Part shown: piece by piece, positions 15,099 to 63,336 of the stretch
Layout: each line of letters opens with the position of its first letter
How positions within the stretch are numbered: the stretch's first letter is position 1
Assembly: GCF_900102615.1 (NCBI RefSeq)
Contig: NZ_FMYV01000005.1
Location: forward strand, 160,416-224,415
DNA length: 64,000 nt
Direction of reading: 5' to 3'
Origin: Geotoga petraea
Lineage (GTDB): Bacteria > Thermotogota > Thermotogae > Petrotogales > Petrotogaceae
Program-made: the position numbers and the translations under genes
Notes under the pieces: generated by a model
What the model saw: the letters and a program-made list of their open reading frames with translations, nothing else
Told to the model about the DNA's origin: nothing
Databases searched by the model: none

Positions 15099-17411
15099 TT
15101 ACACCTCCACAACAGTTACTCCACTTCCACCTTCACCAGTTTTACCCAATCTAAAGTTTTTAATATCTTTGTTCTTCCTTAAATAATCCCAAATTCCTTC
15201 TGCTAATTTACCTGAACCTTTTCCGTGAATAATATATCCTTCGTCCATCTCATTTAACATGATGTCTGATAGAAGCTTTTCTATTTCAGGAATTGCTTCT
15301 TGGACAGTATATCCTCTCAAATCAATTTCAGGTATTACCTTTTTTGTTGGAGTATAGGTCATTTTATCGGATAAACTTGTCTTTCTATTGTTTTCTTTTT
15401 TAACTGGTTTTAGTTCTGAAAGATCATACGTAATCTCTATTGGAGAATCTTCTAAATTGACTTTTGCTTTTTTACCTCTTATTTCAGAAATCTCTCCTTT
15501 TTTATTCCCTTGTACTAATACTTTCATACCTTTTTCAAAATTATATTTGATTTTCTTGTTTTTCGCTTTATCCATATCTCTACTTTTGAAGTTATTCTGA
15601 ATATTCTCTAATTTTTTTAAAGAATTTTTCGCATCTTCAAGGTTTTTAGAATACTTTATATTTTTTATCAAGTTTTCCATTTCTTTTTTTGCTTCTCTTA
15701 TTTGAGAGTTTAAGTTTCCTATTTCATTATCTAATTCCTCAATTTTTTTATCCTTTAATAACTCATATTTTTTGTTGAACTCTCTTTCCTTTTTTTCAAG
15801 TTGTTTTCTTTTATTTTCATGAAACTCTTTATTTGATTGCATCTCTTCATAAGTCTTTGAAATTTTGCTGAATATATTTTCACTGTTTGAATGTTCAGAT
15901 GAAATATATTCAGTTGCTTTTTCTATTATTTCTTTTATAAAACCCATTCTGCTTGCAATTTCTATGGCATGTGATGCGCCTGGAACCCCCATCATAAGAT
16001 GATAGGTCGGTTTTAAAGTATCCATATCAAAGGACATAGATGCAGATGTTAAATTAGAATTTTCTATAGAATAAAGCTTTATTTCAGATAAATGTGATGT
16101 AATAAAAAGCTTCACGTTTTTTTTGATGAGATAGTCTATTATAGACTTTCCTAAAGCTGAACCTTCAATTGGGTCAGTTCCAGTCCCAAGTTCATCTATT
16201 AAAACCAAGCTATTTTCATCAGCATTTTTTATGATTTCGTTTATATTTACCAAATGTGCAGAAAAAGTGCTCAAATTTTGAGTTATGCTCTGCTCGTCAC
16301 CCATATCAGTATATATAGAATTTATAAAAGGCATTTCTGCTTTCATACTCAAAATTGGTAACCCTACATGTGATAGGAAAAAGGCAACTCCTATTGACTT
16401 AAGAGTGACTGTTTTACCTCCGGTATTTGGTCCTGTTATAATCATCCCATTGTTTTCTAAATCTATGTCTAAAGGAACAGAGCCATCTCCTAACAAAGGA
16501 TGTTTTAAATCTTTAAAATATATTTTTTTATGGTGCTTTTTTGGAATGAAATAGTCCGCCTTCCTATAAAAAGAATAATTTGCCTTTGCAATATGATAAT
16601 CTATATAAGATACAACATCTATGTTTTTGTATATTGTTTCAATATTTCGGCTTATCATTAATTTTAACTCAGACAATATTCTCGATATTTCATTTCTTTC
16701 TTTGTTTTGAAGATCTATCAACTCTTCATTTGAGGCACTTATTCTTTCGGGCTCTATAAAATATGTCGCTCCAGAATCAGATTTTGCTACAAAAATACCT
16801 TTTATATATTTTCTGTTCTCTGCCTTTACAGCTAAACAGAGCCTACCGTTTTTAAAAACAGGTTTTTCAATACTAAGATATTTTGAGTATTTGTTTGTGT
16901 AAGAACTGTATAAAGAATCTATTTTTTGTTTTGTTTTTTTTATTTGACTTCTCAAATTTCTCAAAAGTTCTGAAGCTGTATCTTTTATTTCTCCATCTAT
17001 ATCTATGGCGTTGAATATTTCTTTTGCCATATCTCTTAAAAAAGAAAACTTAATAAATACATCTGTAACATTTTTGTCAAAATTATTGTTGTTTTCCTTA
17101 TATTCTCTGTACACGACTTCATGAAATTCAGCTATTCTTCTAAAGTCTTTGGTTTCCGATATAGAGTTTGATTTTAACTTTTCTAAAGTTTCTTTTATAT
17201 CTGGAATTCCTTTAATGTTAAACAGTAACTGGTTGTTCTTTAACATAAAAAAACTTCGGGAAATTTCTATTTCCCGCTGTAAATTTTCTAAATTTTTATA
17301 AAATTGTATTTTTGATTTTAAATATCTTTTGCCATATACACTATGAGAATAGCTACCTATAATTCCAAGTACTTTGTCTATCTCAAGATCTCTGTATGTT
17401 TTCTCTAAAAT
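15099..17411 (-). CDS. mutS2: MutS2 endonuclease/ribosome-rescue ATPase, probable ATT start
   Basis: MutS2 has a MutS-type ATPase (Walker A GPNTGGKT, Walker B LVLIDELGTGTD), a coiled coil, a KOW-like region, and a C-terminal Smr nuclease domain (DLRGYTVQEA, then HGKGSGKLAEGI). The first ATG is at 17246, but the same frame stays open and conserved for 55 more codons. The segment YRDLEIDKVLGIIGSYSHS aligns with the normal MutS2 N-terminus as I recall it from Thermotoga. No ATG, GTG, TTG or CTG occurs there. The best initiator is ATT at 17411, 7 nt after GGGGGTGG (17426-17419), giving 770 residues, close to the usual length. It overlaps the upstream barrel gene by 7 nt. Confidence 0.9.
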   Translation of the reverse strand: MLEKTYRDLEIDKVLGIIGSYSHSVYGKRYLKSKIQFYKNLENLQREIEISRSFFMLKNNQLLFNIKGIPDIKETLEKLKSNSISETKDFRRIAEFHEVVYREYKENNNNFDKNVTDVFIKFSFLRDMAKEIFNAIDIDGEIKDTASELLRNLRSQIKKTKQKIDSLYSSYTNKYSKYLSIEKPVFKNGRLCLAVKAENRKYIKGIFVAKSDSGATYFIEPERISASNEELIDLQNKERNEISRILSELKLMISRNIETIYKNIDVVSYIDYHIAKANYSFYRKADYFIPKKHHKKIYFKDLKHPLLGDGSVPLDIDLENNGMIITGPNTGGKTVTLKSIGVAFFLSHVGLPILSMKAEMPFINSIYTDMGDEQSITQNLSTFSAHLVNINEIIKNADENSLVLIDELGTGTDPIEGSALGKSIIDYLIKKNVKLFITSHLSEIKLYSIENSNLTSASMSFDMDTLKPTYHLMMGVPGASHAIEIASRMGFIKEIIEKATEYISSEHSNSENIFSKISKTYEEMQSNKEFHENKRKQLEKKEREFNKKYELLKDKKIEELDNEIGNLNSQIREAKKEMENLIKNIKYSKNLEDAKNSLKKLENIQNNFKSRDMDKAKNKKIKYNFEKGMKVLVQGNKKGEISEIRGKKAKVNLEDSPIEITYDLSELKPVKKENNRKTSLSDKMTYTPTKKVIPEIDLRGYTVQEAIPEIEKLLSDIMLNEMDEGYIIHGKGSGKLAEGIWDYLRKNKDIKNFRLGKTGEGGSGVTVVEV

Positions 17412-17968
17412 TGGAACGCCACCCCCATTGAAATTGGAAATTGGTTAACTTTGACGTAACTGTCCTCAGCTTCATCTGTCAACTTATAATACCTTGTTTC
17501 ATAACCAGCGAGAACATATATGTTACTGTATGATAATCCTGCTTGCACTAAGATTTCTGTTGAAAAAGATTTCAAATAATCTGGTGAATTGACACCACCA
17601 TAAGCATTCACGACAAAATAGATTTCTTTGAATATTGGGGTAGTATATTTTACATTAAGCCCTAAAGATAAACCTATTGATTTTAAATCCTCATTATAAG
17701 CTGCCAAATAAGTATTTTCAAAACCCTGTATATATGATAAACCAACATAAGGTCCATATTTTATCTCGCCGGTATCTTCGGTATCTATTAGATAAGATAT
17801 TCTACCTCCCAAATAATCAAATGGGTAGTTTCCCGATGTTAATTCAGTGACAACTTGAGAAGTTGCTTGCTGAGTTAATGAATAAGAGGGAGATATAAAT
17901 ATCTCCGATGAAAAACTCACCAACGAAATAATTGTTATAGTTAAAAATAAAAGTATATTTTTCTGCAC
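17405..17968 (-). CDS. Small outer-membrane beta-barrel-like protein
   Basis: This 187-residue exported protein has a signal peptide of about 19 residues (MQKNILLFL...SLVSFSS). Alternating-hydrophobicity strands follow (YGPYVGLSYIQGF, IGLSLGLNVKYTTP, ILVQAGLSYSNIYVLAGYETRYY), and it ends in Phe-Gln-Phe, as typical of outer-membrane barrels. It is most likely a component of the toga outer sheath. The start is GTG at 17968 behind GGGTGG. It lies between dxs and mutS2 in the operon and carries the mutS2 ribosome site in its last codons. Confidence 0.72.
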   Translation of the reverse strand: MQKNILLFLTITIISLVSFSSEIFISPSYSLTQQATSQVVTELTSGNYPFDYLGGRISYLIDTEDTGEIKYGPYVGLSYIQGFENTYLAAYNEDLKSIGLSLGLNVKYTTPIFKEIYFVVNAYGGVNSPDYLKSFSTEILVQAGLSYSNIYVLAGYETRYYKLTDEAEDSYVKVNQFPISMGVAFQF

Positions 17969-19801
17969 CTATACCACCCTTTTATAATTATTTATGATCT
18001 GCTCAATTTTGATATTTAATGTTTTTACATCCAAACCACAAAGTTCTAACTGTTTTTCTCTTGTAGCGTGAGTTATGAATTCATCTTTTATTCCAAATGA
18101 GTAAATCTCTTTATTCGAGAAAATGGAGTGTATTGTCTCTCCAAACCCACCACTCAAGCTCCCTTCTTCCACGGTAATTATCTTTTCTGCTTTTGATTTA
18201 ATTTCTTCTATTATTTTTTTATCTAATTCTTTTATCGTTCTAACTCCTATTACATTAATGTCCATTGATTCTGTAGCTTTCAATACGTTTTTTGATATTG
18301 TTCCTACCGATAAAACATAAGCTGAGCTATCTGAAACTTTTAATTTTTTCCAAGATAAATCAGTATATTCAAGATTATCAATTATATAATCTTTGTCTTT
18401 CTCGTAATTTTCTTTAGGAAAACGAATAAAAGTTGGTTTTTTTATTCCTTTTTTAACACACGTATAAATAGTGTTAGCTAAATCCTGACCATCTAAAGGA
18501 GTGATTAACTCGATATTCGGAATCAATTTCAAATATGAAATATCAAAAACACCGTGATGTGTTGGTCCGTCTTCTCCAACTAAACCCGCTCTATCTAATA
18601 GGAAAAGAGAAGGTATATTTTGCAAGGCAACGTCATGAATTATTGAATCAAATGCCCTCTGCATAAAAGTAGAGTACAAGTCAACAACAGGGAGTACCCC
18701 TCCTAACGATAAACCAGCTGCAGCAGTCACTATACTGGCTTCTGTTATACCCATATCGATTAATTTTTCAGGATCTTTTTCTTTTAATATATTCAAACCA
18801 GTTCCATCAGCCATAGCACCTGTAAAAGCCAGAAAGTTTTCATCAGATAAATAAGCTAAAACATTACCTACGATTTTAGAATGAGATATACCTTTTTTTT
18901 CAATAGGCTTAGATACTCCATGAAATTTAGAGGGTTCATTTTCTGCGTTTATATAACCTTTACCCTTTTTAGTCAAGACATGTAAAACAACAGGACCTTC
19001 GTCATATTGTTTTAGATAATTTAAAAACAATTCCATTTCTTTTATGTTGTGACCATCAATAGGTCCTATGTACTTTATACCCAAGTCTTCAAAAAAACCT
19101 ATGGGTTCAGAAAAAACTGTGTGCTTGAATCCTTCTTTCATTTTTTTGATCATGTTTTCTAAATCTTGGCCTAATTCTGAATCTCCTAAAATATCTTTTA
19201 CCAATTTTTTCAAGGAGTTATAATTTTTTTTCATCCTAATTTTTGAAAATAAATACGAAAAAGTTCCAACGTTTGGAGAAATAGCCATATCGTTGGAGTT
19301 TAATATAATTTTAACATTTGTCTTCTGAAATTTAAGTTGGTTAAGCGATTCCAATGCCATACCACAAGTAAAAGACCCATCACCAATTATTGATATAATA
19401 TTTCTATCTCTTTTTTTTATCTTATCAGCTAAAGTAAAACCTAAAGCGGCAGATATGGAGGTTCCTGCATGTCCTGCTCCAAATTTATCTGCCTCAGATT
19501 CCTTTATATTCGTAAATCCAGATAAACCGTTATAGCGCCTCAGAGTTTTGAATTCATCCCATCTATCAGTTAGTAATTTATGAACGTACGCTTGATGAGA
19601 AGTATCCCATATAACTACATCTTCATATGGATCAAACACTCTATAGAGAGCTAAAGTTAATTCAACAACTCCAAAATTTGATGCTAAATGTCCGTTATTG
19701 GAATAAACCACATCGTAAATATATTTTCTTATTTCATCAGAAAATTCATAGAGTTGAGTATAATTCATTTCTCTTATTTTTTTATATAATTTTTCTTTCA
19801 T
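17969..19801 (-). CDS. dxs: 1-deoxy-D-xylulose-5-phosphate synthase
   Basis: First enzyme of the MEP isoprenoid pathway, condensing pyruvate and glyceraldehyde 3-phosphate with thiamine diphosphate. Visible motifs are NGHLASNFGVVELT, the thiamine motif IGDGSFTCGMALESLNQLKF, the central DRAGLVGEDGPTHHG, and a C-terminal transketolase domain. The frame is open to an ATG at 19840 inside nusB. AAGGATG, formed by the last nusB codons, points to the ATG at 19801 as the real start (610 residues). That leaves a 4-nt gap to nusB rather than a 35-nt overlap. Confidence 0.95.
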   Translation of the reverse strand: MKEKLYKKIREMNYTQLYEFSDEIRKYIYDVVYSNNGHLASNFGVVELTLALYRVFDPYEDVVIWDTSHQAYVHKLLTDRWDEFKTLRRYNGLSGFTNIKESEADKFGAGHAGTSISAALGFTLADKIKKRDRNIISIIGDGSFTCGMALESLNQLKFQKTNVKIILNSNDMAISPNVGTFSYLFSKIRMKKNYNSLKKLVKDILGDSELGQDLENMIKKMKEGFKHTVFSEPIGFFEDLGIKYIGPIDGHNIKEMELFLNYLKQYDEGPVVLHVLTKKGKGYINAENEPSKFHGVSKPIEKKGISHSKIVGNVLAYLSDENFLAFTGAMADGTGLNILKEKDPEKLIDMGITEASIVTAAAGLSLGGVLPVVDLYSTFMQRAFDSIIHDVALQNIPSLFLLDRAGLVGEDGPTHHGVFDISYLKLIPNIELITPLDGQDLANTIYTCVKKGIKKPTFIRFPKENYEKDKDYIIDNLEYTDLSWKKLKVSDSSAYVLSVGTISKNVLKATESMDINVIGVRTIKELDKKIIEEIKSKAEKIITVEEGSLSGGFGETIHSIFSNKEIYSFGIKDEFITHATREKQLELCGLDVKTLNIKIEQIINNYKRVV

Positions 19802-19805
19802 ATAA

Positions 19806-20231
19806 TCATCCTTCATTGCTGCTATAAATTCCTTTTGCAAATCTATCTAATAATCCGTTTACAAATTTTATAGATTTTTCCTCTCCATATTTTTTAGTAA
19901 GTTTTATACTCTCGTCTATTGCAACTTTAAAAGGGACATTTTTTCTGAATTCAAGCTCGTAAAATCCCATTCTTAGAGAAGTTTTTTCTACAAAACCTAA
20001 TCTTTCGAATTTCCAATTTTTAAGTTGTTTTTTTATATTGTTATCTATTTCTTCTCTTTTACTAAGTAGATCTTGTATATATTTTTTTGATTGGTTAATG
20101 CTTTTTTGATCTAACTTGGCATCTTTTGAATTTTCTTCAATTAAAAACTCAATATCTTCTTCGTTAAGTTCTCTATAGTTTAACTGAAATAGAATTGTAA
20201 AAGAAAATTCTCTAACAGGAGATATATCCAT
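19806..20231 (-). CDS. nusB: Transcription antitermination factor NusB
   Basis: This 141-residue all-helical NusB protein binds boxA with NusE/S10 to prevent premature termination of rRNA transcription. Family features are [13 protein letters not shown] at the N-terminus and [41 protein letters not shown] toward the end, given here in outline. It follows the Asp23-like gene with a 1-nt overlap, the same order as yqhY-nusB in Firmicutes. Confidence 0.95.
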
Positions 20232-20656: not shown

Positions 20657-20706
20657 TTTAATACCTCCCTTATATGTTTTCTTTCCACCTAAAATTATAT
20701 CATACT

Positions 20707-23157
20707 TTAAAACATTTTTAATTGTCCTTGTGGAGTTTTATATTTCTTTCTATTTATATTTCGCATCTTCTTCAATCTGTTTTCTAAATCCACTTTATCA
20801 GAAAGATTTTCCAGAACTTCTTTAGCCCTATCGACTATTTCACTTGGAAAACCTGCTAACCTTGCTACTTCTATGCCGTAACTGTTATCACTGACACCAT
20901 TCTCTATTTTATGCAAAAAAAGAACACCTTCTTTTGTTTCTTTTACTTGAACTCTTTTTGTAATAACATTATCATATATTTCTGAAAGCATTGTCAACTC
21001 AGTATAATGGGTGGCAAAAATCGTATTAGATTTTAGAATTTGAAAAAGATATTCAGAAATAGCCCATGCTACTGATATTCCGTCTAATGTTGACGTCCCC
21101 CTACCAACTTCATCAAGCAAAACCAATGATCTTTCAGTTGCTTGGTTTAGAATAGTTGACATTTCCATCATTTCAACTAAAAAAGTTGATTTACCAGTTA
21201 CAATATCATCTTTTGCACCTATTCTTGTAAACACTCTATCATACAAAGGTATATGTGCTTTTTTTGCTGGGACAAAACATCCAGCTTGAGCGAGTATACT
21301 CAAAATTCCAATTTGCCTAAGATAGGTAGATTTACCACTCATGTTAGGGCCAGTTAAAACTATAAAATTCTTGTCTTCTATTTCAAAATCATTTTGTGTA
21401 AAATTATCAACAAATTTTTCAACAACAGGATGTCTCGAACTTTCGATTTTGGCCTTATTCCCTTTTACAAAATAAGGTCTTGTATATCTATTTGTTTTAC
21501 TAATTTCAGCAAAACTCCGTATTACATCTAAATATGATATTTTTTCAGATATAGTTTTCAAATCTTTTACGGAATCAGATAAGTCTTTTATGAAATTTAA
21601 AAAAATCGTTTTTTCAATTTTTTTAACCTTTTCCTCTGCTATGATAACTTTTTTTTCAAGTTCTCTAAGCTCTTCAGTGATAAACCTTTCTGTATTAGTT
21701 AAAGTTTGTTTTCTAATATACTCATCTGGAACTTCTTTTGATTGAGCTTTTGATATTTCAATATAAAAACCATATATTTTATTTCTTCCTAATTTCAGTG
21801 TGGTTATTCCTGTTTTTTCTTTTTCTCTTTTTTGTATATTTTCTAAAAAAGTATCTATATCTGTTATTAGACTTCTGTATTCGTCTAATTCTTTAGAAAT
21901 ACCTTTTTTTATAACTTTTCCATCACCAGGTTCATTAGAAGGTTCATCAAATATATGTTTTTCTATTTTTTGTTTCAAATCAGTTCTTATATTAACATTA
22001 GAAAAAAACCCTTGAGTTTTTTCATTGGTTTCTAAAGCTTCTTTAATATATGGAACTTGAGTTAAAGAATCTTTTAGGGCAATTAAATCTTTTGGAGTAG
22101 ATTTTAAGAGCGATATTCTTGATATAATTCTATCGATATCTTTTATTGATGATAAGTATTCTTTTATTTCTTCTGATAAAAAATTGTTCTCAAAAAAAAC
22201 TTCAACAAGATCTAATCTTTGATTGATTTGTTTTTCATCAATCAAAGGTCTACTTAAAAAGTCTTTTAGCTTTCTATGCCCCATAGGTGTTTTTGTTTTT
22301 CTCAAAATATCATATACAGATTTCCCTCTATTTTCATTTGAAACTATATTCAAATTGTTTAAGGTATTTATATCTATGTACATAAATTCTTTTGATTTTA
22401 ACTTTTTTGGTATGTTCAAATGCTTTATTTTTTTGAATTGGGTTAGTTCCAAATACTTCAAAACTGCGTCCAGACTTTTTAACTCTTCTTGGTCAAACGG
22501 AAGATGACCTAAAGTTAAAATATCATAAGATTCTTTTATATGTTCTTCGTAATTTGAAGAGAAATACCACTCTTCTAAAACTTCTGTATAAATTTTGGAT
22601 GATAATGTTTTTATTTCATTTTTCAAATATCTAAGTTTAAAACTTAAAAGCACTTGAGAATAATTATTGGAAATTATCATGTCCAACAACTCATTTTGAG
22701 AAATATCAAATCTATCTATATATAATTCCCCAGTTGAAAAATCAAATAAAACTATTAAAAATTCTTCATCTTTTTCATCATAATCCACTAAAATGCTGAA
22801 TCTATTGTTTTCGTCCAGCATATTTTCTTCTATTATTGTTCCTGGAGTAATAACCCTTGTGACTTCTCTTTTCACAATACCCTTTGCTTCAGAAGGATCT
22901 TCAACTTGATCACAAATAGCCACTTTTAAACCATTATCTAATAACTTTTTTAAATAGTTATCTAAAGCATGATAAGGTATCCCCGCCATAGGATGATTGT
23001 TTCTCTTAGTTAGAACTATTTGAAGTATTTCAGATACCTTTTTTGCATCTTCAAAAAATGTTTCATAAAAATCTCCAAGCCTAAAAAGTAAAATTGAATC
23101 ATTATTCTTTTCTTTTATCTCCAAATATTGCTTCATCATTGGTGTATATTCAGCCAT
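20707..23157 (-). CDS. mutS: DNA mismatch repair protein MutS
   Basis: Recognises mismatches and recruits MutL. The mismatch-contact motif F-Y-E lies in RLGDFYETFF near residue 30. The ATPase has Walker A GPNMSGKS and signature/Walker B LVLLDEVGRGTSTLDG. The C-terminal helix-turn-helix (EIVDRAKEVLENL) for dimerisation is present. At 816 residues it is complete. A terminator and a hairpin touching the ribosome site separate it from clpP. The matching mutL is 34 kb away at 57179-59008. Confidence 0.97.
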   Translation of the reverse strand: MAEYTPMMKQYLEIKEKNNDSILLFRLGDFYETFFEDAKKVSEILQIVLTKRNNHPMAGIPYHALDNYLKKLLDNGLKVAICDQVEDPSEAKGIVKREVTRVITPGTIIEENMLDENNRFSILVDYDEKDEEFLIVLFDFSTGELYIDRFDISQNELLDMIISNNYSQVLLSFKLRYLKNEIKTLSSKIYTEVLEEWYFSSNYEEHIKESYDILTLGHLPFDQEELKSLDAVLKYLELTQFKKIKHLNIPKKLKSKEFMYIDINTLNNLNIVSNENRGKSVYDILRKTKTPMGHRKLKDFLSRPLIDEKQINQRLDLVEVFFENNFLSEEIKEYLSSIKDIDRIISRISLLKSTPKDLIALKDSLTQVPYIKEALETNEKTQGFFSNVNIRTDLKQKIEKHIFDEPSNEPGDGKVIKKGISKELDEYRSLITDIDTFLENIQKREKEKTGITTLKLGRNKIYGFYIEISKAQSKEVPDEYIRKQTLTNTERFITEELRELEKKVIIAEEKVKKIEKTIFLNFIKDLSDSVKDLKTISEKISYLDVIRSFAEISKTNRYTRPYFVKGNKAKIESSRHPVVEKFVDNFTQNDFEIEDKNFIVLTGPNMSGKSTYLRQIGILSILAQAGCFVPAKKAHIPLYDRVFTRIGAKDDIVTGKSTFLVEMMEMSTILNQATERSLVLLDEVGRGTSTLDGISVAWAISEYLFQILKSNTIFATHYTELTMLSEIYDNVITKRVQVKETKEGVLFLHKIENGVSDNSYGIEVARLAGFPSEIVDRAKEVLENLSDKVDLENRLKKMRNINRKKYKTPQGQLKMF

Positions 23158-27295: not shown

Positions 27296-27326
27296 CAGGA
27301 GACATTAAGAGTCTCCTGTTTTTTTT
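27296..27326 (+). terminator. Terminator of tRNA-Leu(GAG), overlapping the end of the convergent gene
   Basis: CAGGAGAC and GTCTCCTG pair around a 7-nt loop, followed by eight T. The loop and right arm also encode the last codons and stop of the convergent flippase-like gene. Confidence 0.88.
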
Positions 27327-28306
27327 GGCCTCAATATAAACAGAATTATACCTACAAAAATTACAAAATAATATGTAACTAGTCTCCATATGAAAACAGA
27401 CGTATTTATCGTAAAAATATCTGCTGTTTCTGAAAATATCAAATAATAAAATCCTTCTGCTGCTCCAGCAGTACCCGGTGTAGGAACAATTGCAGCACCA
27501 ATATCTAAAACTAAAGATTTAAAAAACAAATCAATGTTAAAATCAATTTTAAAGCCCATTAGCACAAAAATTATAGAAAAAATATACGTAAGCACTTGAA
27601 CACTACTCAAAGCAAAAACTGATAAAAATTGTGGTATTTTTTTTGAGTTAGTTTTAAACATATTTACAAAAGCTTCGACATTATTCACAATTTTTTCCAT
27701 CATATCTTCAGGTTTTTTTACTATTTTTATTTTTTTTAACAGCATGGTAACACTTTTTACGATTTTTAAAGATTTTTCCTTGCTCAATGAAAAGAGTAGT
27801 ATTAAAAAAATTACAAATCCATTTAACAAAGTACCTGCTAAAATAATTAAAGTCGATTCCAAGTTAAGATATATATAAGAATAAACAACACCTGTTATTC
27901 CAAATACAGTCATTACAATTTGAAATATCATTGATTTATATATTATACTTGCAGTTGTTTCGCCTGGTTTTATACCTTTTTGAGATAAATAGTATACCAA
28001 TACAGGTTGTCCTCCTGTAAAAAAAGGTGTGAGGTAATTAAATAGATTACCTATAATTACTATTCTCATAAGAGAAAAAAAACCAAATTTATCCTTGTGC
28101 TCGAAAAGAGAGATTTTCAAAATCCAGGTTTCTGCTATCCATTTCACAACCATCATTAAAATACCCAAAAAAGCAAAATAAATTATAAAAGTTTTTAATT
28201 TTTGAATGTTTTCCTCAATCCCTGTGCTAAATGTAAAAACGGATATTATACCAAAAGTTAGTATTAATGAAAGGATAAATCCTCTAATATACTTTTTTTT
28301 ATTCAT
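27305..28306 (-). CDS. YbhN/LPG-synthase transmembrane-domain (flippase-like) protein, copy 1
   Basis: Polytopic membrane protein of 333 residues with about eight hydrophobic segments. The family marks TPFFTGGQPVLVYYL and PTPGTAGAAEGFYY belong to the UPF0104 (lysylphosphatidylglycerol synthase transmembrane region) family. No C-terminal aminoacyltransferase domain follows, so it is the stand-alone type thought to flip or bind lipid-linked substrates. A paralogue of equal length lies at 61285-62295 in a glycosyltransferase operon. Substrate unknown. Confidence 0.85.
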   Translation of the reverse strand: MNKKKYIRGFILSLILTFGIISVFTFSTGIEENIQKLKTFIIYFAFLGILMMVVKWIAETWILKISLFEHKDKFGFFSLMRIVIIGNLFNYLTPFFTGGQPVLVYYLSQKGIKPGETTASIIYKSMIFQIVMTVFGITGVVYSYIYLNLESTLIILAGTLLNGFVIFLILLFSLSKEKSLKIVKSVTMLLKKIKIVKKPEDMMEKIVNNVEAFVNMFKTNSKKIPQFLSVFALSSVQVLTYIFSIIFVLMGFKIDFNIDLFFKSLVLDIGAAIVPTPGTAGAAEGFYYLIFSETADIFTINTSVFIWRLVTYYFVIFVGIILFILRPKKTGDS

Positions 28307-46060: not shown

Positions 46061-46092
46061 AAATTCAGGGATTTTATCCCTGAATTTTTTTT
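46061..46092. terminator. Bidirectional terminator between the GNAT and radical SAM genes
   Basis: AAATTCAGGGAT and ATCCCTGAATTT form a 12-bp stem with 3-nt loop, followed by T-run. The radical SAM stop codon falls in the loop. Confidence 0.86.
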
Positions 46093-47702
46093 AGGTTTTC
46101 TTTTTGTTCAGAAGTTAAAAAATCAAAACTTCTATTGAATATAATCTTATCTGCAGTTTTTTTTGAAATACCCTTAATCATTGAAAGTTCTTTTCGATCT
46201 AAATTGTTAAGATTTATAGGGTGTTTTAAAATCGTTAAAGATCTTGAACCGTGGTCAACCACAACACCATCGTATTTTGTGTATAATTCTTGTTCTTTTG
46301 GATAGCCACAAATTACAGAATAAGTACCCAATTGTCTTGAATAAGACATATAATTTTCATTTTTTTCTACTATAAGATTTTTCATTTTAGTCCCAAGAGG
46401 AAATACTTTTTCAAGCATTTTATGATCGTAATATTTCATAAACTCTTTGAATTTTTTAAACTCTTTTTTGTTGACTTTGTGCTTTTCATCAGTAAGAGAT
46501 AGATAAGTTTTAGGAAAAACCATTACCTGTCTTACATTTATCCTTCTCAACATGAGATCATCATCATATATTTCTTCCAACACCCTTTTATTAACTTCAT
46601 ACGTTCTTTTGCTTTCTCCAATAAGTCCAAATAAAAGGTTTATACCAGGTAAAAGCTTTGGTATCCCATTCTCATCTCTTTTACCCCCTATTTCGTTTAC
46701 CAATTCAATAGCCTTGATAAAACTCTCTTTGCTTCCAGAAATTTTGTTTTTTTTCAAAACATTTTCATCAAAACTCTCAATTCCAAAAGATAAAATATCT
46801 CCAGACGTATTATATTTTGAAATAGTTTCTATGATTTTTTGAGATTCTGAATAATTATCTATTATAAAATTTGGATTAGCATTATCTGTGTGAATTAAAT
46901 CAAATTTATCATGAATCTCTTTATATAAATCTTCAAAAATTTGAGTATTTATTTTATCGTCGTTAAAACTAATTCCATAGGCAAGAAAATTTGAGCTTCT
47001 ACCAAACCTAATATTTTTAACATCATTTTTTGATAAACTATTTAATTCTTCTATTACATCTTTTAATTCTCTTTCTTTATACAATCCATAAATAACTGGT
47101 TCTGTGCAAAAACTACAAAAACCCTCTTTTCTGTCGCACCCTCTTGAAAGCTCAATTTCTGCTATAACATCTGGGAACCTTGGATGTTGACGAACGATAT
47201 GAGCTCCTAACGGAGCTATTTTATTTATTACATCATAACTTTCTCTCTCTTTTATATCCCATTCATCATTAATTGGATATTTTAATAAAAAATTTTCAAC
47301 GGCTCCTTCAACTATATAGTCAAAATTGTCCTTTAAAAGATCCTTTAATATAGAGGCGCTTTTACCTCCAGTCAATGTGTAACCTTTTGTTATAGGCCCT
47401 CCTAAAACCCTAAGTGGAGAGCTATTTAATTTGAATATTTTATTTATTTCATCAATGTTTATTGGCTTTCCACTTAGATAGTGGCCAGGAACTGTTGTGC
47501 CCGCTATAATTATTATATATTCATAATGATCAAGTGATTGCCATAAATCATCTTTTCTAATTTGATCTATTGTAAAATATTTAACTTCTATATCATTATA
47601 CATTAATGCTCCTGCAGCGTATCTAACTTGAGGAGAGATATATGGTGGAACACCTAAAGCAGCAGGTTCATCTAAATATCCATCTATAATTGCAGCTTTC
47701 AA
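46074..47702 (-). CDS. Radical SAM protein with unusual CX6CX2C cluster motif and C-terminal HhH
   Basis: A 542-residue protein. The first 150 residues look like a B12-binding-like Rossmann domain (AAIIDGYLDEPAALGVPPY, YEYIIIIAGTTVPG). The radical SAM core carries ELSRGCDRKEGFCSFCTEP, that is C-x6-C-x2-C instead of C-x3-C-x2-C. The C-terminus (LSMIKGISKKTADKIIFN) is a helix-hairpin-helix, a nucleic-acid-binding fold. Related proteins occur in archaea and anaerobes, of unknown function. RNA modification is a guess from the HhH. It lies downstream of the PBP2 gene. Confidence 0.8.
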   Translation of the reverse strand: MKAAIIDGYLDEPAALGVPPYISPQVRYAAGALMYNDIEVKYFTIDQIRKDDLWQSLDHYEYIIIIAGTTVPGHYLSGKPINIDEINKIFKLNSSPLRVLGGPITKGYTLTGGKSASILKDLLKDNFDYIVEGAVENFLLKYPINDEWDIKERESYDVINKIAPLGAHIVRQHPRFPDVIAEIELSRGCDRKEGFCSFCTEPVIYGLYKERELKDVIEELNSLSKNDVKNIRFGRSSNFLAYGISFNDDKINTQIFEDLYKEIHDKFDLIHTDNANPNFIIDNYSESQKIIETISKYNTSGDILSFGIESFDENVLKKNKISGSKESFIKAIELVNEIGGKRDENGIPKLLPGINLLFGLIGESKRTYEVNKRVLEEIYDDDLMLRRINVRQVMVFPKTYLSLTDEKHKVNKKEFKKFKEFMKYYDHKMLEKVFPLGTKMKNLIVEKNENYMSYSRQLGTYSVICGYPKEQELYTKYDGVVVDHGSRSLTILKHPINLNNLDRKELSMIKGISKKTADKIIFNRSFDFLTSEQKENLKKIQG

Positions 47703-47776
47703 AATAAAACCTCCAGTAAAGGGAAAGATGAAGTATTCAAATTTTGGTGGATTTGGCGAAATAGTTAACTTTGAAA

Positions 47777-47863
47777 TTAAATTTGGTTTTGAAAACTTAA
47801 TAAAATAAGTAAAGAAAGAATTGCTGCTACCAAAACGGGCAAAAAACTATCATCTACTTTCAA
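47777..47863 (-). CDS. Possible 28-residue membrane peptide after PBP2 (uncertain)
   Basis: From a TTG at 47863, inside the end of the PBP2 gene, a short frame encodes two acidic residues followed by about 19 hydrophobic ones (FLPVLVAAILSLLILLSF) and QNQI. That is a typical single membrane helix. The ribosome site is weak and T-rich DNA yields hydrophobic frames by chance, so this is only a candidate. It would be co-transcribed with the mre operon. Confidence 0.2.
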   Translation of the reverse strand: MKVDDSFLPVLVAAILSLLILLSFQNQI

Positions 47864-55398: not shown

Positions 55399-55412
55399 TT
55401 AATCCAAGAATG

Positions 55413-55441
55413 ATTATACTATAAAAATCTTATTCTGTCAA
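55413..55441 (-). promoter_or_regulatory. Consensus promoter of tRNA-Leu(CAA)
   Basis: On the minus strand TTGACA, 17 nt, TATAAT, overlapping the region just after the stop of the OB-fold protein gene. Confidence 0.85.
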
Positions 55442-55444
55442 TAA

Positions 55445-57016: not shown

Positions 57017-57178
57017 CGAAATCATCTCCAGTAATTTATTTTTGTGATAATTAATCTAAATAACCAAATGAAGAAATGGAAGAAAGCTTCTATGTAGTAT
57101 TATTGATTTTAATTTCGATTATTCTAGAATCAGATAAAAATCACAATTTGAATTTTTTGGCTGAAATAAAAAACATAA

Positions 57179-59008
57179 TCAGCGGCCAAAAAAATCATCC
57201 AATTTTTTATAAGGCATATTCATCATTATGGGTCTGCCATGAGGACATGTCTTTAATTTCATTTCAAAAACATCACTCACTAACTTTTCAAGTCCTACAA
57301 CATCGTCTCCAGTTTTTACAGCACTTCTACATGCCATAGTGGCCAGTGCATCTTCGTGAATTTTCTCCAAAGACTCTATTCCCTTAAGTTTTAAAGTATC
57401 CAATATTTCTCTTATCATTGCTTTTGGATTTTTTACCTTAATCCCCAAAGGTAGCGTTTCTATTTTCATTATTTCATTCTCAAAAGAAAAATTCAAACCT
57501 ATTTGGTTAATAATTTCCCTATGCTCATTTATTTCTTCTTTTTCTTCAAAAGACACTCTTATTTCAATTGGGATTAATAGCTTGTTCTTTTTGATTCTTT
57601 TTTCAGTAAAAAACTGTTTTTTCAACTTTTCAAAAATAACCCTTTCATGGGCTGCATGAAAATCCATTATTATTATTTGATCTTCGTCTTCTATAATAAG
57701 ATACCTTGTATTTGCAACTCCTATAATTCTTTTGTTATTTGTTCTACTATCACTATTTTCAATTTGAAAATTAGTGGAGATTGTATCATTAACTTTTTTC
57801 TTCTCAAAAAATTCATTTGAGTATCCATAATCTTTTATTGGTTCTTTTATATGAATTTTTTCTTGATGGCCCTCATTGTTATATAAACTCGTATTATAGC
57901 CATTTTCAAAATTTGACTTGGATTTGTAATCAGAGTTATCAAAAACTAAGTCTCTTTTTCTTTCACCACTCTGATTTTCAATATTTTGATTTTTCTCTAT
58001 CTTTTCAAAGTTGAGATTAAATTTAGTTTTTTCCACCAGATTTTCTCTCAATATGTTCTTCATATCCTTCATTATTATATTTTGATCGGAAAATTTCACT
58101 TCTAATTTTTGAGGATGCACGTTTACATCAACATTATCAGGCAAAACATTTATAAAAAGGACCCCGTAAGGATGTCTCCCCTTATCAAGCATTTCTCCAT
58201 AACTTCGTTCAAAAACAGAAAAAAGGTCTCCTTCTTTCACGTATCTTTTGTTTACAAAAAATATTTGAGCAGATCTATTTCCTCTTGTCGTTTTTGGATT
58301 TGAGATAAAACCCTTGATACTACCCCAACCAATATTTTGATTAATTTCGATTAAATCTTCAAGTTTTAACTCTGGAAATAAAGTTATTATTTTATCTGTA
58401 TGTTTATCATTCTTGTAAAATTTGTATATTTCTTTTCCATTCCTGATATATTCAAAATCTATATTTTCTGATAAAATAAATTTTTCTACTATGTCAGTTA
58501 CTTTTCTTGATTCTGATGATGATGATTTTAAAAATTTTCTTCTTGCGGGAATATTAAAAAAGAGGTCATTAACCTCTATTTTAGTTCCCTTATTTTTTGT
58601 GACTTCTTTAACTTCCACTTCTTTTCCACCAATATAAAATATCTCATAACCTGTTAAATCATTTTCTTTTTTTGAACTAATACTCATTCTGCTAATCTCA
58701 GATATAGAGGCTAATGCTTCGCCTCTGAAGCCAAATGAGTTTATACTGTATAAATCATCAAATTTATCAATTTTCGACGTTGTGTGAGGTTTTACAGCTA
58801 TTCTCATCTCTTCTAAAGACATACCATCACCATTATCTTCAACAACGATTTTACTTTTACCCCCATCGATAATTTCAACCCTTATTTTATCAGCACCAGC
58901 ATCTATTGAATTTTCGATTAACTCTTTAACAACATTATAAGTACCAGAAATAACCTCACCTGCTGCTATTTTTACTATAATATCATCTGGTAACTTTTTT
59001 ATTCTCAT
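57179..59008 (-). CDS. mutL: DNA mismatch repair protein MutL
   Basis: GHKL ATPase plus endonuclease of 609 residues. ATPase motifs: IAAGEVISGTYNVVKELIENSIDAG (given in outline), VEDNGDGM, and NSFGFRGEALASI. The C-terminal nuclease has DFHAAHERVIFEKL (the usual DQHA is DFHA) and the zinc-linked CPHGRPI. That marks the nicking type, used where mutH is absent. Overlaps rlmB by 4 nt. Its partner mutS lies at 20707-23157. Confidence 0.96.
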   Translation of the reverse strand: MRIKKLPDDIIVKIAAGEVISGTYNVVKELIENSIDAGADKIRVEIIDGGKSKIVVEDNGDGMSLEEMRIAVKPHTTSKIDKFDDLYSINSFGFRGEALASISEISRMSISSKKENDLTGYEIFYIGGKEVEVKEVTKNKGTKIEVNDLFFNIPARRKFLKSSSSESRKVTDIVEKFILSENIDFEYIRNGKEIYKFYKNDKHTDKIITLFPELKLEDLIEINQNIGWGSIKGFISNPKTTRGNRSAQIFFVNKRYVKEGDLFSVFERSYGEMLDKGRHPYGVLFINVLPDNVDVNVHPQKLEVKFSDQNIIMKDMKNILRENLVEKTKFNLNFEKIEKNQNIENQSGERKRDLVFDNSDYKSKSNFENGYNTSLYNNEGHQEKIHIKEPIKDYGYSNEFFEKKKVNDTISTNFQIENSDSRTNNKRIIGVANTRYLIIEDEDQIIIMDFHAAHERVIFEKLKKQFFTEKRIKKNKLLIPIEIRVSFEEKEEINEHREIINQIGLNFSFENEIMKIETLPLGIKVKNPKAMIREILDTLKLKGIESLEKIHEDALATMACRSAVKTGDDVVGLEKLVSDVFEMKLKTCPHGRPIMMNMPYKKLDDFFGR

Positions 59009-59724
59009 TTTAATCGCCTCTGTTTTAAAGCTTCAAACATTATAACTCCAGCACTTACAGAAACATTCAAAGATTCAACATTATTCAACATCGGAATAGA
59101 AACAATTCCATCTGAATGATCTTTTATGTTCTTTCTAACTCCACTACCCTCATTTCCCATTACAAGACAAAAACCACCCTGCATATTTATATCAAAATAA
59201 TTTTGGCCATTCATATCAGCAGAATAAACCCATATATTATTATCTTTTAATCTATCTATAGTCCTCGATAAATTAGTAACTTGGACAATAGGTAATTTAA
59301 ATATTTGCCCCGAAGAGACCTTAATAACCGTAGAAGTCACTCCACAAGAATTATCTTTGGGGATTATTATAGCATCAACCCCACTCGCAACCGCTGACCT
59401 AACAATAGCACCAAAATTATGGGGATCTTGTACTTGATCCAATATGACAAAAAATGGCTCTTCCTTTTCATAAAGAATAGATTCTTCAGAATAGTTGAAT
59501 TCTTTACCAATGTCTACCACAACACCCTGATTCTTAGAAGTATCAGATAAATTTTTTAATTTTTTTGAATCAACCAATTGGCAGTTGTATCCCTTAATTA
59601 AAGATTCTTCGTATAAATCTTTTAAACTTTTATCTACATTTTTGCTATCTGAAAAATATATTTTTTTTACTTTATAATTATTCTCTAAAATTTCTTTTAA
59701 GACATTTCTTCCTTGAACATACAT
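59005..59724 (-). CDS. rlmB: 23S rRNA 2'-O-methyltransferase, RlmB/TrmH (SpoU) family
   Basis: N-terminal L30e-like substrate domain (MYVQGRNVLKEILE) and SPOUT domain with the deep-knot motifs ILDQVQDPHNFGAIVRSA, GFCLVMGNEGSGVR and SIPMLNNVESLNVSVSAGVI. 239 residues, typical for RlmB (Gm2251 in E. coli). It follows mrnC with a 28-nt overlap, the same order as mrnC-rlmB in Firmicutes. Confidence 0.92.
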   Translation of the reverse strand: MYVQGRNVLKEILENNYKVKKIYFSDSKNVDKSLKDLYEESLIKGYNCQLVDSKKLKNLSDTSKNQGVVVDIGKEFNYSEESILYEKEEPFFVILDQVQDPHNFGAIVRSAVASGVDAIIIPKDNSCGVTSTVIKVSSGQIFKLPIVQVTNLSRTIDRLKDNNIWVYSADMNGQNYFDINMQGGFCLVMGNEGSGVRKNIKDHSDGIVSIPMLNNVESLNVSVSAGVIMFEALKQRRLK

Positions 59725-60116
59725 TTATCAATCACCTCAAAAATTTCGTTTAAACGATCAAATTCCTTAGCTAAATAAAGATAGCCTATTAATGATTCCA
59801 ATCCTGTAGATCTTCTATAACTCAAGTCATTTCCTCTTTTCCCTGCACCGCGTGAATTATAACCTCTTTTATAAATATTCTTTTCTTTTTCAGATAATTG
59901 CGGAAATATTTTAAGTGCAAAATCATCATGTGCTTTAGCGCTTAAAAAATCTTTTGATCTTTCATTAAGATGAAAAGGCTTTTTCCTTCCATCTTTCAAG
60001 ATCAAAAGTTTATATTTTAACGCCATAACAGCATCTCCAATATAAGCAAAATTATCTATAGGTATTTCTCTAAAATCAGCTAATTTATTTGTTTTAAAAA
60101 ACTCTTCTACATTCAT
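59697..60116 (-). CDS. mrnC: Mini-ribonuclease III (MrnC)
   Basis: A 139-residue RNase III catalytic domain without dsRNA-binding domain. It matures the ends of 23S rRNA in Bacillus. Signature YIGDAVMALKYKLLIL (in outline) and the C-terminal SYRRSTGLESLIGYLYL hold the acidic metal ligands. The adjacent rlmB also acts on 23S rRNA. Confidence 0.92.
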   Translation of the reverse strand: MNVEEFFKTNKLADFREIPIDNFAYIGDAVMALKYKLLILKDGRKKPFHLNERSKDFLSAKAHDDFALKIFPQLSEKEKNIYKRGYNSRGAGKRGNDLSYRRSTGLESLIGYLYLAKEFDRLNEIFEVIDKCMFKEEMS

Positions 60117-60129
60117 AAAAAATTCCCCA

Positions 60130-61278
60130 TTAAATCAAATTTTTATACACTTCTATTAATTTCTCTACATTAACTGTGAGAGAAAAATTGTTTTCTACGA
60201 AAGTCTTTCCCATTGATGATAGTTTATTATATTCACTTTCATTATTTAAAAGTCTTAAAATGTTATGAATAAAATCATCAGCTACTAATTCTGGAATCAT
60301 TATTCCACCAGTGTTCTTTCTTGAAAGAATATCATAGACCCCCATCTTACCAAGGGCTATTACTGGAGTCCCTGAAGCCAGCGATTCTAAAACAACTAAC
60401 CCTTGAGTTTCTGTATATGAAGCAAAAATAAAAAGATCAGCTTGCTTATAAGCATCTATTACCTTTCCACGTGCTTGACCACCAGTGAATATAACCTTTT
60501 GTTGCAATCCTTCATTAACAACAGCTTCTTCGAGATTTTCTCTTTCGTTTCCATCACCAACAATAACAAATTTTACATTTTCTTCTTCTTCAACTACTTT
60601 TTTGAAAACGTCTTTTATTAAAAAATCAATATTTTTTTCCTTTGCTATACGACCAACAAAAAGCAATATTTTATCTTCTTCATGTATATTATATTCTTTT
60701 CGTAAATCCCATTTTATAGGTTTATCAAAAGAATACATATCGATTCCCGTTGGTATAACTACTATGTGGTCTTGAGGTACTCCGTAATCTATTAAGACTT
60801 CCTTTATATTATTAGTTGGAACTATAACCTTATCAAGCTTCATACACCAGTTTTTAATTAGCTTTTTAGATTGTTCTAATGACGGTCTAATAATTAAAGG
60901 GGCATAATGCCTATAATATTCATACATTGTGTGATGAGTTCCAACATGTTTAAGATTTAGATTAGAAGAAATCAACCTAGCCATAATTCCCATTGAAAAA
61001 GGAGCATGAGAATGAATAACATCCAAATTCAAATTTCTTATTTTAAACAATTGTTTTGAGAAAGGTAAAGCAAATCTCTGCTCTTTTTCTTTGAAATAAG
61101 TGACTGCTGGAAATTCGAATACATTTCTTTCCTCTCTTTTGTGATTACTATCGTATTCTGGAACAAAAACAAATACATTATGCCCAAGTCTCTCCATTTC
61201 ATCTTTATATATTTTTACTGCCGTTGCAACACCATTTTTCTGAGGCACATAAGTATCTGAAAACATAGCTATATTCAT
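60130..61278 (-). CDS. GT4-family glycosyltransferase
   Basis: A 382-residue GT-B enzyme. It opens with MNIAMFSDTYVPQKNGVATAV and has HAPFSMGIM, then FVGRIAKEKNIDFLI and TETQGLVVLESLASGTPVIA (nucleotide-sugar site with E-x7-E). It resembles diacylglycerol glucosyl/mannosyltransferases that make glycolipids. It lies 6 nt after the flippase-like gene, so a glycolipid role is plausible. The exact sugar is unknown. Confidence 0.9.
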   Translation of the reverse strand: MNIAMFSDTYVPQKNGVATAVKIYKDEMERLGHNVFVFVPEYDSNHKREERNVFEFPAVTYFKEKEQRFALPFSKQLFKIRNLNLDVIHSHAPFSMGIMARLISSNLNLKHVGTHHTMYEYYRHYAPLIIRPSLEQSKKLIKNWCMKLDKVIVPTNNIKEVLIDYGVPQDHIVVIPTGIDMYSFDKPIKWDLRKEYNIHEEDKILLFVGRIAKEKNIDFLIKDVFKKVVEEEENVKFVIVGDGNERENLEEAVVNEGLQQKVIFTGGQARGKVIDAYKQADLFIFASYTETQGLVVLESLASGTPVIALGKMGVYDILSRKNTGGIMIPELVADDFIHNILRLLNNESEYNKLSSMGKTFVENNFSLTVNVEKLIEVYKNLI

Positions 61279-61284
61279 TTTAAT

Positions 61285-62295
61285 TCACCTTCTTTTAATA
61301 AAAGCATTGTTAATAAACAATAATAAACTTCCAAATATTATTTGCATATAATATGAAGAAAACCTCCACCCAAAAACAGCTGTAAGAGCTATTTTTGAAT
61401 TCCCTGTAAGTGAACTTAGAAAAATATGGTAAGCTCCCTCCATTGAACCACTCGCACCTGGGGTTGGTAAGTAAAAGACTACCATATTTAAAATAGCCAT
61501 ACCTCCAAAAATTTTCCAATAAGATATGTTTAAATCAGGAGTAAAAACATCAACAAAATAATATAAAGAATAGGCTTGAACTATAAGTAAACCCACTCCT
61601 AATAATATATCTAATATCATAATGTATAACTTTTCATTCCATAAAAATCTAATACTTTTTTTCAATTCAACTATCCAATTTTCTAATTTCAAACTCCAAT
61701 TTTTCTTTCTAAAAAATTTTATTTTTTCTAATAATCGAACTATTTTTATAATAATTCTGCTTCTTACAAAAAGAACAAGTATAAACAAAGTTACTATTAA
61801 TGATGTTATTAATCCTAACTGGATTAGCCTTACAGAAATCCTCCCCCCTCTAAGGGAACTTATAATTGAATTATAAAAAAATATAGCAACAAAAAAATTA
61901 GTAAACATAGTTTCTAAAAACCTTGAAACCATAATATTCATTCCATGCTCATAATCAACGCCAAGTGATTCATTTAAATGCCATATTTGATAAGGTTGCC
62001 CACCTGCAGCTAAAGGAGTTACTGCGGTGAAAAAAAAGCCCATAACATTATTATAGGTCAAATCTAAAAAATTTGTTTTTATATTAAAGTTTGATATGAT
62101 TATCTTCATTCTCAATGCATCAATCAAATATCCACTAGCAAAAATAGAAAAAGAAATAAAAATGTGTTTTATTTTTATATTTTTTATAATTTCTATTAAA
62201 CTATTATTAGTTACACTACTGATAATAGAAAATATTCCAATACTTATTAAAACTGCAATAATGACATATAATAAATTTTTATTTATCTTTTTTAT
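61285..62295 (-). CDS. YbhN/LPG-synthase transmembrane (flippase-like) protein, copy 2, probable ATA start
   Basis: Same UPF0104 family as the protein at 27305-28306 (TAVTPLAAGGQPYQIW and YLPTPGASGSMEGAYHIF match its two motifs). The first standard start codon (TTG 62127) would cut off 56 residues that include the first membrane helix. The frame is open upstream to the stop of the preceding gene, and encodes K-K-I-N-K-N-L-L-Y-V-I-I-A. With ATA at 62295, 8 nt after GGGGG (62308-62304), it has 336 residues. The paralogue has 333. No ATG, GTG, TTG or CTG is available. Confidence 0.85.
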   Translation of the reverse strand: MKKINKNLLYVIIAVLISIGIFSIISSVTNNSLIEIIKNIKIKHIFISFSIFASGYLIDALRMKIIISNFNIKTNFLDLTYNNVMGFFFTAVTPLAAGGQPYQIWHLNESLGVDYEHGMNIMVSRFLETMFTNFFVAIFFYNSIISSLRGGRISVRLIQLGLITSLIVTLFILVLFVRSRIIIKIVRLLEKIKFFRKKNWSLKLENWIVELKKSIRFLWNEKLYIMILDILLGVGLLIVQAYSLYYFVDVFTPDLNISYWKIFGGMAILNMVVFYLPTPGASGSMEGAYHIFLSSLTGNSKIALTAVFGWRFSSYYMQIIFGSLLLFINNAFIKRR

Positions 62296-62298
62296 TTT

Positions 62299-63336
62299 TT
62301 ATTCCCCCTTACTATTTAATTCTTTCTCATATATTTGTTTTAATTTCTCAAAAGCCTTTTTATCATCATATTGACGAAATAATTCATATGATTTTTCAAC
62401 ATTTTCGCTATATTCAATGGAATCGTTTTTTAATTTTTCAAAAATTCTAATAAAATCATCATTATTTTTCCCGTATAAATAAAAAGGAGAGAAAATCTTT
62501 TTATATACTTCTAAATCTCTTAATATAATTGGTAATCCACTACCAGCAGCTTCTATAATAACCAATCCAAAAGTTTCGTGTATTGATGGCAAGAAAAAAA
62601 CATCTGACAATCTATAATAATCTATCATTTTTTCTCTCTCAATAGTTCCTGTAAATTTCAAATTACTAAGGTTAGAATTTATAATCTTATTCATTTTTTC
62701 ATAACCTTCGGTAGCCTTTTTAAAAGGCATCCCCCCAACCCAAATAAATTTTTTATTTCTTTGCTCTTTTGCTAATTTATAAAAATCTTCAATCCCTTTT
62801 CTCGGTTGAATTTGACCTGAACCAATTATTATAAAATCATCTTTAGAATAACCATATTGTTTTCTTAAATCATTCTTCATAGATTCTTTTTTTGAATACT
62901 CAGTATAAAACATATCTCTTCTAACAAAATTACGAAATATAACTACTTTTTCTTCTTTTATACCTAAATCATTTATAAGTTCATTTTTTGTTTCTTCGCT
63001 AACTGCTAAAACTCTATCTGACATATTATATATCATTTTTAAATAAATTCTAAAAATTGGTAACCATATAAAACTAAATTTTAAACTTCCCCTTAAAGAA
63101 TTGGGTACAATATGAGCTGAAAATATTTTTACTGACTTTTTTCTGTTAAAAAGTAAAGAAAAAAAAGTCTTTATATTAACTGTATGTGCGTGTATAATGT
63201 CATATTTTCCAAATATTTTATTTTGAAATATATCAAAATTACCATATTTTTTTAAAATAAATTTATGATCTTTTGTAGCAGAATAAACACCTTGTCCAGG
63301 ATATTTTTCAGCAATTGATAAAATATTAATTTTCAG
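62299..63336 (-). CDS. GT4-like glycosyltransferase, probable CTG start
   Basis: GT-B glycosyltransferase of 345 residues. The C-terminal half is clear (IIGSGQIQPRKGIEDFYKLA, FLPSIHETFGLVIIEAAGSGLP). A standard-start reading would begin at 63036 and lose the acceptor-binding N-domain. That frame continues upstream with K-I-N-I-L-S-I-A-E-K-Y-P-G-Q-G-V-Y-S-A-T, the usual GT4 opening, and stops only at a TGA three codons before. CTG at 63336 is the first codon of that sequence, 10 nt after GGAG (63350-63347). It heads the operon; the next gene starts after 3 nt. Confidence 0.85.
   Translation of the reverse strand: MKINILSIAEKYPGQGVYSATKDHKFILKKYGNFDIFQNKIFGKYDIIHAHTVNIKTFFSLLFNRKKSVKIFSAHIVPNSLRGSLKFSFIWLPIFRIYLKMIYNMSDRVLAVSEETKNELINDLGIKEEKVVIFRNFVRRDMFYTEYSKKESMKNDLRKQYGYSKDDFIIIGSGQIQPRKGIEDFYKLAKEQRNKKFIWVGGMPFKKATEGYEKMNKIINSNLSNLKFTGTIEREKMIDYYRLSDVFFLPSIHETFGLVIIEAAGSGLPIILRDLEVYKKIFSPFYLYGKNNDDFIRIFEKLKNDSIEYSENVEKSYELFRQYDDKKAFEKLKQIYEKELNSKGE

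Follow-up and report, generated by a model that had tools for sequence, protein, structure and literature searches.

A likely near-cognate start codon of mutS2 conserved across Petrotogaceae genera, with two further candidates in Geotoga petraea

Genes with near-cognate starts in the window

Three minus-strand genes in a stretch of 64,000 nucleotides (nt) from Geotoga petraea (contig NZ_FMYV01000005.1, positions 160,416 to 224,415; hereafter the window, with coordinates counted from its first base) have no ATG, GTG or TTG codon (collectively NTG) at the start defined by homology: mutS2, the gene of a PF03706 membrane protein, and the gene of a GT4 glycosyltransferase. Their reading frames stay open far above the first NTG codon, at 15099-17444 (66 codons), 61285-62298 (57 codons) and 62299-63342 (102 codons), respectively. 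A strong Shine-Dalgarno (SD) sequence lies at each homology-defined start, and the best SD, with strength given as duplex energy in kcal/mol, precedes a near-cognate codon: ATT at 17411 (-13.5), ATA at 62295 (-10.6) and CTG at 63336 (-13.0). The first NTG codons of the three genes are without an SD (-1.5, -2.7 and -1.3 kcal/mol, respectively). Translation of mutS2, the membrane protein and the glycosyltransferase from ATT, ATA and CTG is likely by these features of the DNA. An earlier note on this stretch had claimed three such genes with clear SDs, two of them adjacent, and both homology and SD energies bear it out, the ATA and CTG genes being neighbours. Another open reading frame (ORF), 46074-47846, open for 48 codons, was rejected as a fourth case: TTG at 47702 stands behind GGAGG.

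The features of the three genes and of the gene upstream of mutS2 are as follows (aa, amino acids):

15099..17411, minus strand: mutS2 coding sequence, 770 aa from ATT (frame, homology, NCBIfam model)
17409..17411, minus strand: mutS2 ATT start codon, kept in 14/14 non-Marinitoga family genomes
17419..17426, minus strand: mutS2 SD GGGGGTGG, within the upstream coding sequence (SD match)
17405..17968, minus strand: upstream gene, predicted 8-strand outer-membrane barrel, 187 aa, terminal Phe (fold prediction, alignment)
17405..17411, minus strand: 7-nt stretch shared by mutS2 ATT and the end of the upstream gene (Phe codon TTT, 17408-17410; stop TAG, 17405-17407)
61285..62295, minus strand: PF03706 (LPG_synthase_TM-type) membrane protein with likely ATA start (Pfam model, alignments)
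62293..62295, minus strand: likely ATA start codon of the membrane protein (best SD)
62304..62310, minus strand: SD AAGGGGG before ATA (SD match)
62299..63336, minus strand: GT4 glycosyltransferase of the glycolipid-synthase type with likely CTG start (homology)
63334..63336, minus strand: likely CTG start codon of the glycosyltransferase (best SD)
63347..63353, minus strand: SD AAAGGAG before CTG (SD match)
63344..63346, minus strand: TTG abutting the glycosyltransferase SD, out of frame by one T; probably in frame in siblings, judged from their proteins

The genes mutS (20707-23157), mutS2 (15099-17411) and mutL (57179-59008) all lie within this one 64 kb window.

Comparisons covered 21 genomes of the family Petrotogaceae from eight genera, in which G. 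petraea is the sole genome of its own genus; protein names from Petrotoga, Marinitoga, Tepiditoga and Defluviitoga identify the family, and the labels Marinitoga-type (group g4, seven genomes) and Petrotoga (g6) were inferred from protein lengths and identities. mutS2 was searched in 103 Thermotogota genomes, with a match in 100, and its upstream DNA outside Petrotogaceae was examined at 9 + 20 + 6 loci. Ribosome binding sites (RBS) were scanned in five genomes: G. petraea and four others, one of which (G090) lies outside Petrotogaceae.

Conservation of the mutS2 start

Residues 3-769 of the MutS2 protein cover positions 2-789 of the NCBIfam mutS2 model (790 positions). At the aligned start, ATT is found in 14/14 genomes outside the Marinitoga type, which represent seven of the eight genera, and ATG in all seven Marinitoga-type genomes. 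An in-frame stop lies immediately 5' of ATT in nine of the 14, and the other five have no NTG between the stop and ATT. Codon 2 is TTA, followed by G or A, in 11 of the 14 genomes (five genera), and these contain no NTG at codon 1 or 2. One Marinitoga-type genome (G006, locus L029) carries 11 stops within the matched mutS2 stretch, which marks either a pseudogene or an assembly fault.

The earlier note had also foreseen misannotated N-termini, and mutS2 is indeed often miscalled in this group: annotated lengths are 731 aa in Tepiditoga (P0008) and 769 aa in Petrotoga (P0017), against 777 aa from the ATT site (P0012). All four sibling MutS2 proteins of 79-87% identity, available as protein sequences, are called short, as expected from non-NTG starts.

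A weak mutS2 start also appears in a second Thermotogota family (f8), where ATA is present in 9/9 genomes read (of 11), behind GGAGGTG and a spacer of 6 to 8 nt. There the gene does not overlap its neighbour: at the three loci read at length the upstream stop starts 27 to 38 nt before ATA, and no NTG with a strong SD was found at these loci. Judged from the genomes, two families thus have a weak start at mutS2, and they differ in its codon and in its sequence setting. Two loci of a further family (f9; L146 and L147) were rejected as weak-start cases, an ATG with an SD being present further upstream. Searches on a weak mutS2 start, on non-canonical starts in Thermotoga, and on AUU/AUA starts retrieved no report of a weak mutS2 start in the excerpts returned, and a scan of named genomes for mutS2 gave two matches only, both at distant loci.

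Overlap with the upstream gene

In all 14 ATT genomes the stop codon of the upstream gene starts 4 nt after the first base of ATT, giving a 7-nt overlap; in the Marinitoga-type genomes the genes are apart, with the upstream stop starting 6 nt (six genomes) or 9 nt (one genome) before the mutS2 ATG. The upstream protein ends in Phe in 21/21 family genomes. Its structure prediction has eight strands, the last one reaching the C-terminus (mean predicted local distance difference test score, pLDDT, 88.6; predicted template modelling score, pTM, 0.80), and the nearest solved fold is that of NspA (E-value 2.1e-6, template modelling score, TM, 0.55). By this model the protein is a beta-barrel ending in Phe, with a predicted location in the outer membrane. 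For porin anchoring the terminal Phe has been called essential, and it is present in the Thermotogales protein OmpB (PMC3387000).

In the 7-nt register, the start codon consists of one free base and the first two bases of the last upstream codon. A terminal Phe (TTY) hence permits only NTT starts (ATT, CTT, GTT, TTT), and ATG, GTG or TTG would require a terminal Cys or Trp, which limits the choice among weak mutS2 codons. The overlap accounts for the codon used but not fully for the retention of a weak start. Across the G. petraea genome, 7-nt overlaps provided 10 near-cognate sites with an SD, in eight of which an NTG with an SD lies within seven codons; after this filter mutS2 and one site (L245:18831) were left, the latter with an SD-less ATG two codons upstream.

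infC and initiation factor 3

The infC gene, which encodes initiation factor 3 (IF3), was inspected in the same genomes. Its strongest SD (-14.3 to -15.7 kcal/mol) precedes ATA (14 genomes) or ATT (seven, the Marinitoga-type genomes), so that the best start is weak in 21/21 family genomes; in five infC genes a TTG stands right next to the SD, at a weaker score (-7.0). The infC of G. petraea (L001:1183-1758, G000 contig C13) and that of G018 carry an in-frame ATG inside the SD, without an SD of its own, which is absent in the other 19 genomes. The kept weak infC start suggests that IF3 discrimination is still active.

In the IF3 alignment, all 21 proteins have Leu at the position of Escherichia coli Arg131, Asp, Glu, Thr or Ser at Arg116, and Phe at His137, and all retain Tyr75, Lys97, Arg99, Lys110 and Arg133. 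The DNA pattern for MF[LF]GR[DE]I was found in 21/21 family genomes and in 2/82 other Thermotogota, the latter two being unconfirmed as IF3. The initiator-tRNA stem GGGCTCATAACCC was found in 21/21 family genomes. A change of Arg131 in E. coli IF3 relaxes start choice. Literature searches and term look-ups in PMC5472188, PMC2268962, PMC8266586, PMC5037330, PMC4611024 and PMC3130014 found no mention of that allele; among the retained residues, Tyr75 is a fidelity residue (PMC5037330). By alignment, Leu at Arg131 is compatible with relaxed initiation. An altered IF3, which the earlier note had named as one possible basis of relaxed initiator selection, is thus present, at Arg131 and Arg116 and with Tyr75 and Arg99 kept; the relaxed selection itself is not demonstrated, given the weak infC start, the tRNA stem in all 21 genomes, and the near-cognate candidates in G090, a genome without the IF3 signature.

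The ATA and CTG genes

The membrane protein fits the Pfam model PF03706 from residue 11 onward. In a comparison with its family (23 rows, one a repeat), 20 rows have ATG, GTG or TTG in the open stretch, and the orthologues in G019 and G020 have no NTG before the aligned region. All four siblings of 81-89% identity, again available as proteins, are called 32 to 62 residues short, and the ATA start is probably shared within the genus. The window contains two PF03706 paralogues, 25% identical: 61285-62295 and 27305-28306, the latter with an ordinary ATG.

The glycosyltransferase was compared with 13 orthologues from the family, all but one of which could be aligned at the N-terminus. Eleven of the 12 aligned genes start with ATG (nine exactly at the CTG site, two within about five codons) and one with TTG, and the weak start of this gene is not conserved at the family level. 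Both genes look younger than the mutS2 case. Between the CTG-start gene and a 5S rRNA gene (63811-63924, minus strand) lies a tandem repeat of a 7/14-base unit (GTTGTTA; 63495-63626; about 19 copies of the 7-base unit).

The earlier note had treated the three genes as one class of weak-start genes. This reading was rejected, since ATT of mutS2 is kept across genera, whereas ATG or TTG takes the place of CTG in relatives of the glycosyltransferase. By these alignments the weak start of mutS2 is old, conserved and connected with a gene overlap; those of the ATA and CTG genes seem to have arisen at the level of the genus.

Frequency of near-cognate starts

In 864 kb of G. petraea (764 coding-like ORFs), we judged four further hits outside the window to be near-cognate candidates: a type-4 uracil-DNA glycosylase (ATA or ATT), a Crp-type regulator (ATT), an AAA/EVE-domain gene (ATA), and a gene whose product has an N-terminus resembling a signal peptide (ATC). 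With the three genes of the window they make 7/764, about 0.9%, a count that rests on our own judgement of hits. The ratio in the window (3/59) against that elsewhere (4/705) gives a Fisher p of 0.012, but the window was chosen for these genes and the four were self-picked, hence this is no evidence of clustering. Similar near-cognate cases were found in the other four sampled genomes, including G090, which lies outside Petrotogaceae and is without the IF3 signature.

The RBS scan of the five genomes gave 42 near-cognate codons, where codon frequency predicts 24.4; the 42 include neighbouring codons of a single gene and a transposase present three times, and are not proof alone. For starts projected from orthologues, a strict rule returned 2/702 genes (mutS2 and a Petrotoga GT2 gene with ATT). 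A looser rule flagged 17/711, six of which were judged clear: mutS2, the Crp-type regulator, the GT2 gene, a carbon-nitrogen hydrolase, tmcAL and an ABC gene. The control for the looser rule, 13 genes with only other codons behind the SD, weakens the 17 flagged. In E. coli, 91 coding sequences (a few very short ones left out) from two stretches contained one non-NTG start, that of infC, in the stretch chosen for infC. Very roughly, and on weak controls, further near-cognate starts amount to ~1% of the genes sampled. A codon-bias scan for start detection was abandoned as too weak (about 0.3 bits per codon).

A theme of translational tuning of membrane-glycan and repair genes, also proposed in the earlier note, was not borne out, since the further candidates include regulators, metabolic genes and transport genes. 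Three copies of one gene in G018 (L179:11783, L185:13126, L188:6095) have a candidate ATA start; this is likely a mobile element, or could be another recoding device. In other Thermotogota, a tmcAL-type gene (L225:9521-10798, CTG), a cobB-type gene (L189:2897-4177, ATT) and a dihydroorotase-type gene (L157:9569-10774, ATA), all on the minus strand, have NCBIfam models that begin at residue 2 of the near-cognate reading.

Discussion

On balance, and with confidence only a little above even, we favour the view that ATT of mutS2 is a conserved weak start, which probably limits the amount of MutS2 and, by prediction, is repressed by IF3 in the way assumed for infC, and that the ATA and CTG genes are likely near-cognate-started. 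Ribosomes ending the barrel gene would restart at the overlapping ATT, aided by the internal SD; initiation there would be inefficient and repressed by IF3, and a shortage of IF3 would raise MutS2 synthesis, the same control as for infC. In the ATA and CTG genes, weak starts would have arisen recently and gene by gene, made tolerable by strong SDs. In Staphylococcus aureus, AUA and AUU starts with extended SDs yield about 10% of AUG expression (PMC13009471), and in Streptomyces the GTC start of sigR is repressed by IF3 (PMC5472188). In Bacillus subtilis, collided ribosomes recruit MutS2, which splits them (PMC10897456); joint control of MutS2 and IF3 is an attractive hypothesis. A more ambitious version, which we regard as speculative and unlikely to hold as a whole, is that a Thermotogota weak-start regulon sensing IF3 pairs infC with mutS2, both made when IF3 is scarce; that the Petrotogaceae IF3 (Arg131 to Leu) shifted the threshold, allowing AUU, AUA and CUG to spread to about 1% of genes; and that the membrane-sorting Phe upstream dictates the weak codon of mutS2.

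Several observations weigh against a regulated mutS2 start. For ATT in E. coli, about 0.3% of AUG activity is quoted (PMC10666635), perhaps too little for a protein that the cell needs. Among 29 rows of other Thermotogota, 24 have an NTG within seven codons of the aligned mutS2 start; two more have an ATG further upstream and three belong to the family f8. ATT is not strictly forced by the overlap, as TGA for the upstream stop would give a TTG start in a 4-nt overlap, and the separation of the genes with ATG in the Marinitoga type counts as one evolutionary event. In three of the 14 ATT genomes (G011, G019, G020) codon 2 is TTG, a possible ordinary start in a 4-nt overlap. The last point would fit a by-product of the overlap without regulation: an ancestral Phe-TGA with a TTG start would have lost it when the stop changed to TAG or TAA and TTG became TTA, and the adjacent ATT would have taken over thanks to the strong SD. 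The sequence ATT TTG A is still present in those three genomes, the other 11 having ATT TTA and then G or A, and Phe-TGA-TTG overlaps exist in G014 and G090. This history explains Petrotogaceae nearly as well as the view favoured here and fails mainly on f8, which retains ATA in 9/9 genomes without an overlap; ATT is also kept across five genera though a return to TTG looks easy. We consider it a serious possibility, though rather an unlikely one.

For the CTG gene chiefly, a sequence error or a recent frameshift has to be weighed, in which one extra T after GA put TTG out of frame. The siblings P0122, P0123 and P0124 begin MIFLKIN or MILLKIN, and the window sequence has a run of six T; on the other hand, hardly any spacer separates that TTG from the SD and CTG is well spaced, and P0135, identical to P0122 in the shared part, is likewise called from the inner Met used in the window gene. 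Such an error is excluded for mutS2 by 14 genomes and unlikely for the ATA gene given four short sibling calls, and overall we find it doubtful; CTG is nevertheless the weakest of the three cases and may be genus-shared or reflect a change in the T run. A lineage-wide relaxation, in which AUU, AUA and CUG are tolerated by the changed IF3 (Leu at Arg131, an acidic or small residue at Arg116) and weak starts accumulate by drift, would agree with the IF3 changes and the MF[LF]GR[DE]I pattern throughout the family and with further candidates in every genome sampled; it appears quite improbable, with infC keeping its weak start, similar candidates in G090, which is without the pattern, and an excess of near-cognate codons that is modest. 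That the proteins start at the first inner NTG, with untranslated homology upstream, matches the short forms given by gene callers (P0165, 280 aa; the mutS2 siblings), but the inner codons are without an SD (-1.3 to -2.7) and the proteins would lack N-terminal residues that relatives conserve, which leaves this reading with hardly any credibility.

Conserved weak starts have rarely been characterized in genes other than infC (PMC5472188), and the proposed IF3-sensitive start of mutS2 can be placed beside them. The infC genes of E. coli, S. aureus and Streptomyces (AUU/AUA/AUC, autocontrol by IF3) likewise have a near-cognate start and a strong SD conserved between species, and infC of Petrotogaceae itself belongs to this weak-start type; in contrast to infC, mutS2 encodes no initiation factor, its start in Petrotogaceae lies inside the upstream gene, and its control by IF3 is predicted. 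Streptomyces sigR shares with mutS2 a weak start outside infC proposed to be policed by IF3 (PMC5472188), but it has GTC rather than ATT or ATA, encodes a sigma factor, and has experimental evidence for IF3 repression, which for mutS2 we infer. The starts of cvfC1 (AUU) and ccpN (AUA) in Staphylococcus and Bacillus (PMC13009471) are similarly conserved, non-canonical, equipped with extended SDs and outside infC; they concern other genes in another phylum, and the excerpt describes no gene overlap. Termination-reinitiation pairs (PMC10666635) resemble mutS2 in their short same-strand overlap, ATT being usable in 5-nt overlaps that are closed to NTG, but the mutS2 overlap is 7 nt and its limit is set by the terminal Phe codon upstream.

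The N-termini of MutS2 and IF3 in the Petrotogaceae group need re-annotation. The overlap displays a simple rule: the final residue of the upstream protein restricts which start codon the following gene can have. With a weak mutS2 start in two families, one could test whether initiation fidelity and ribosome rescue are linked.

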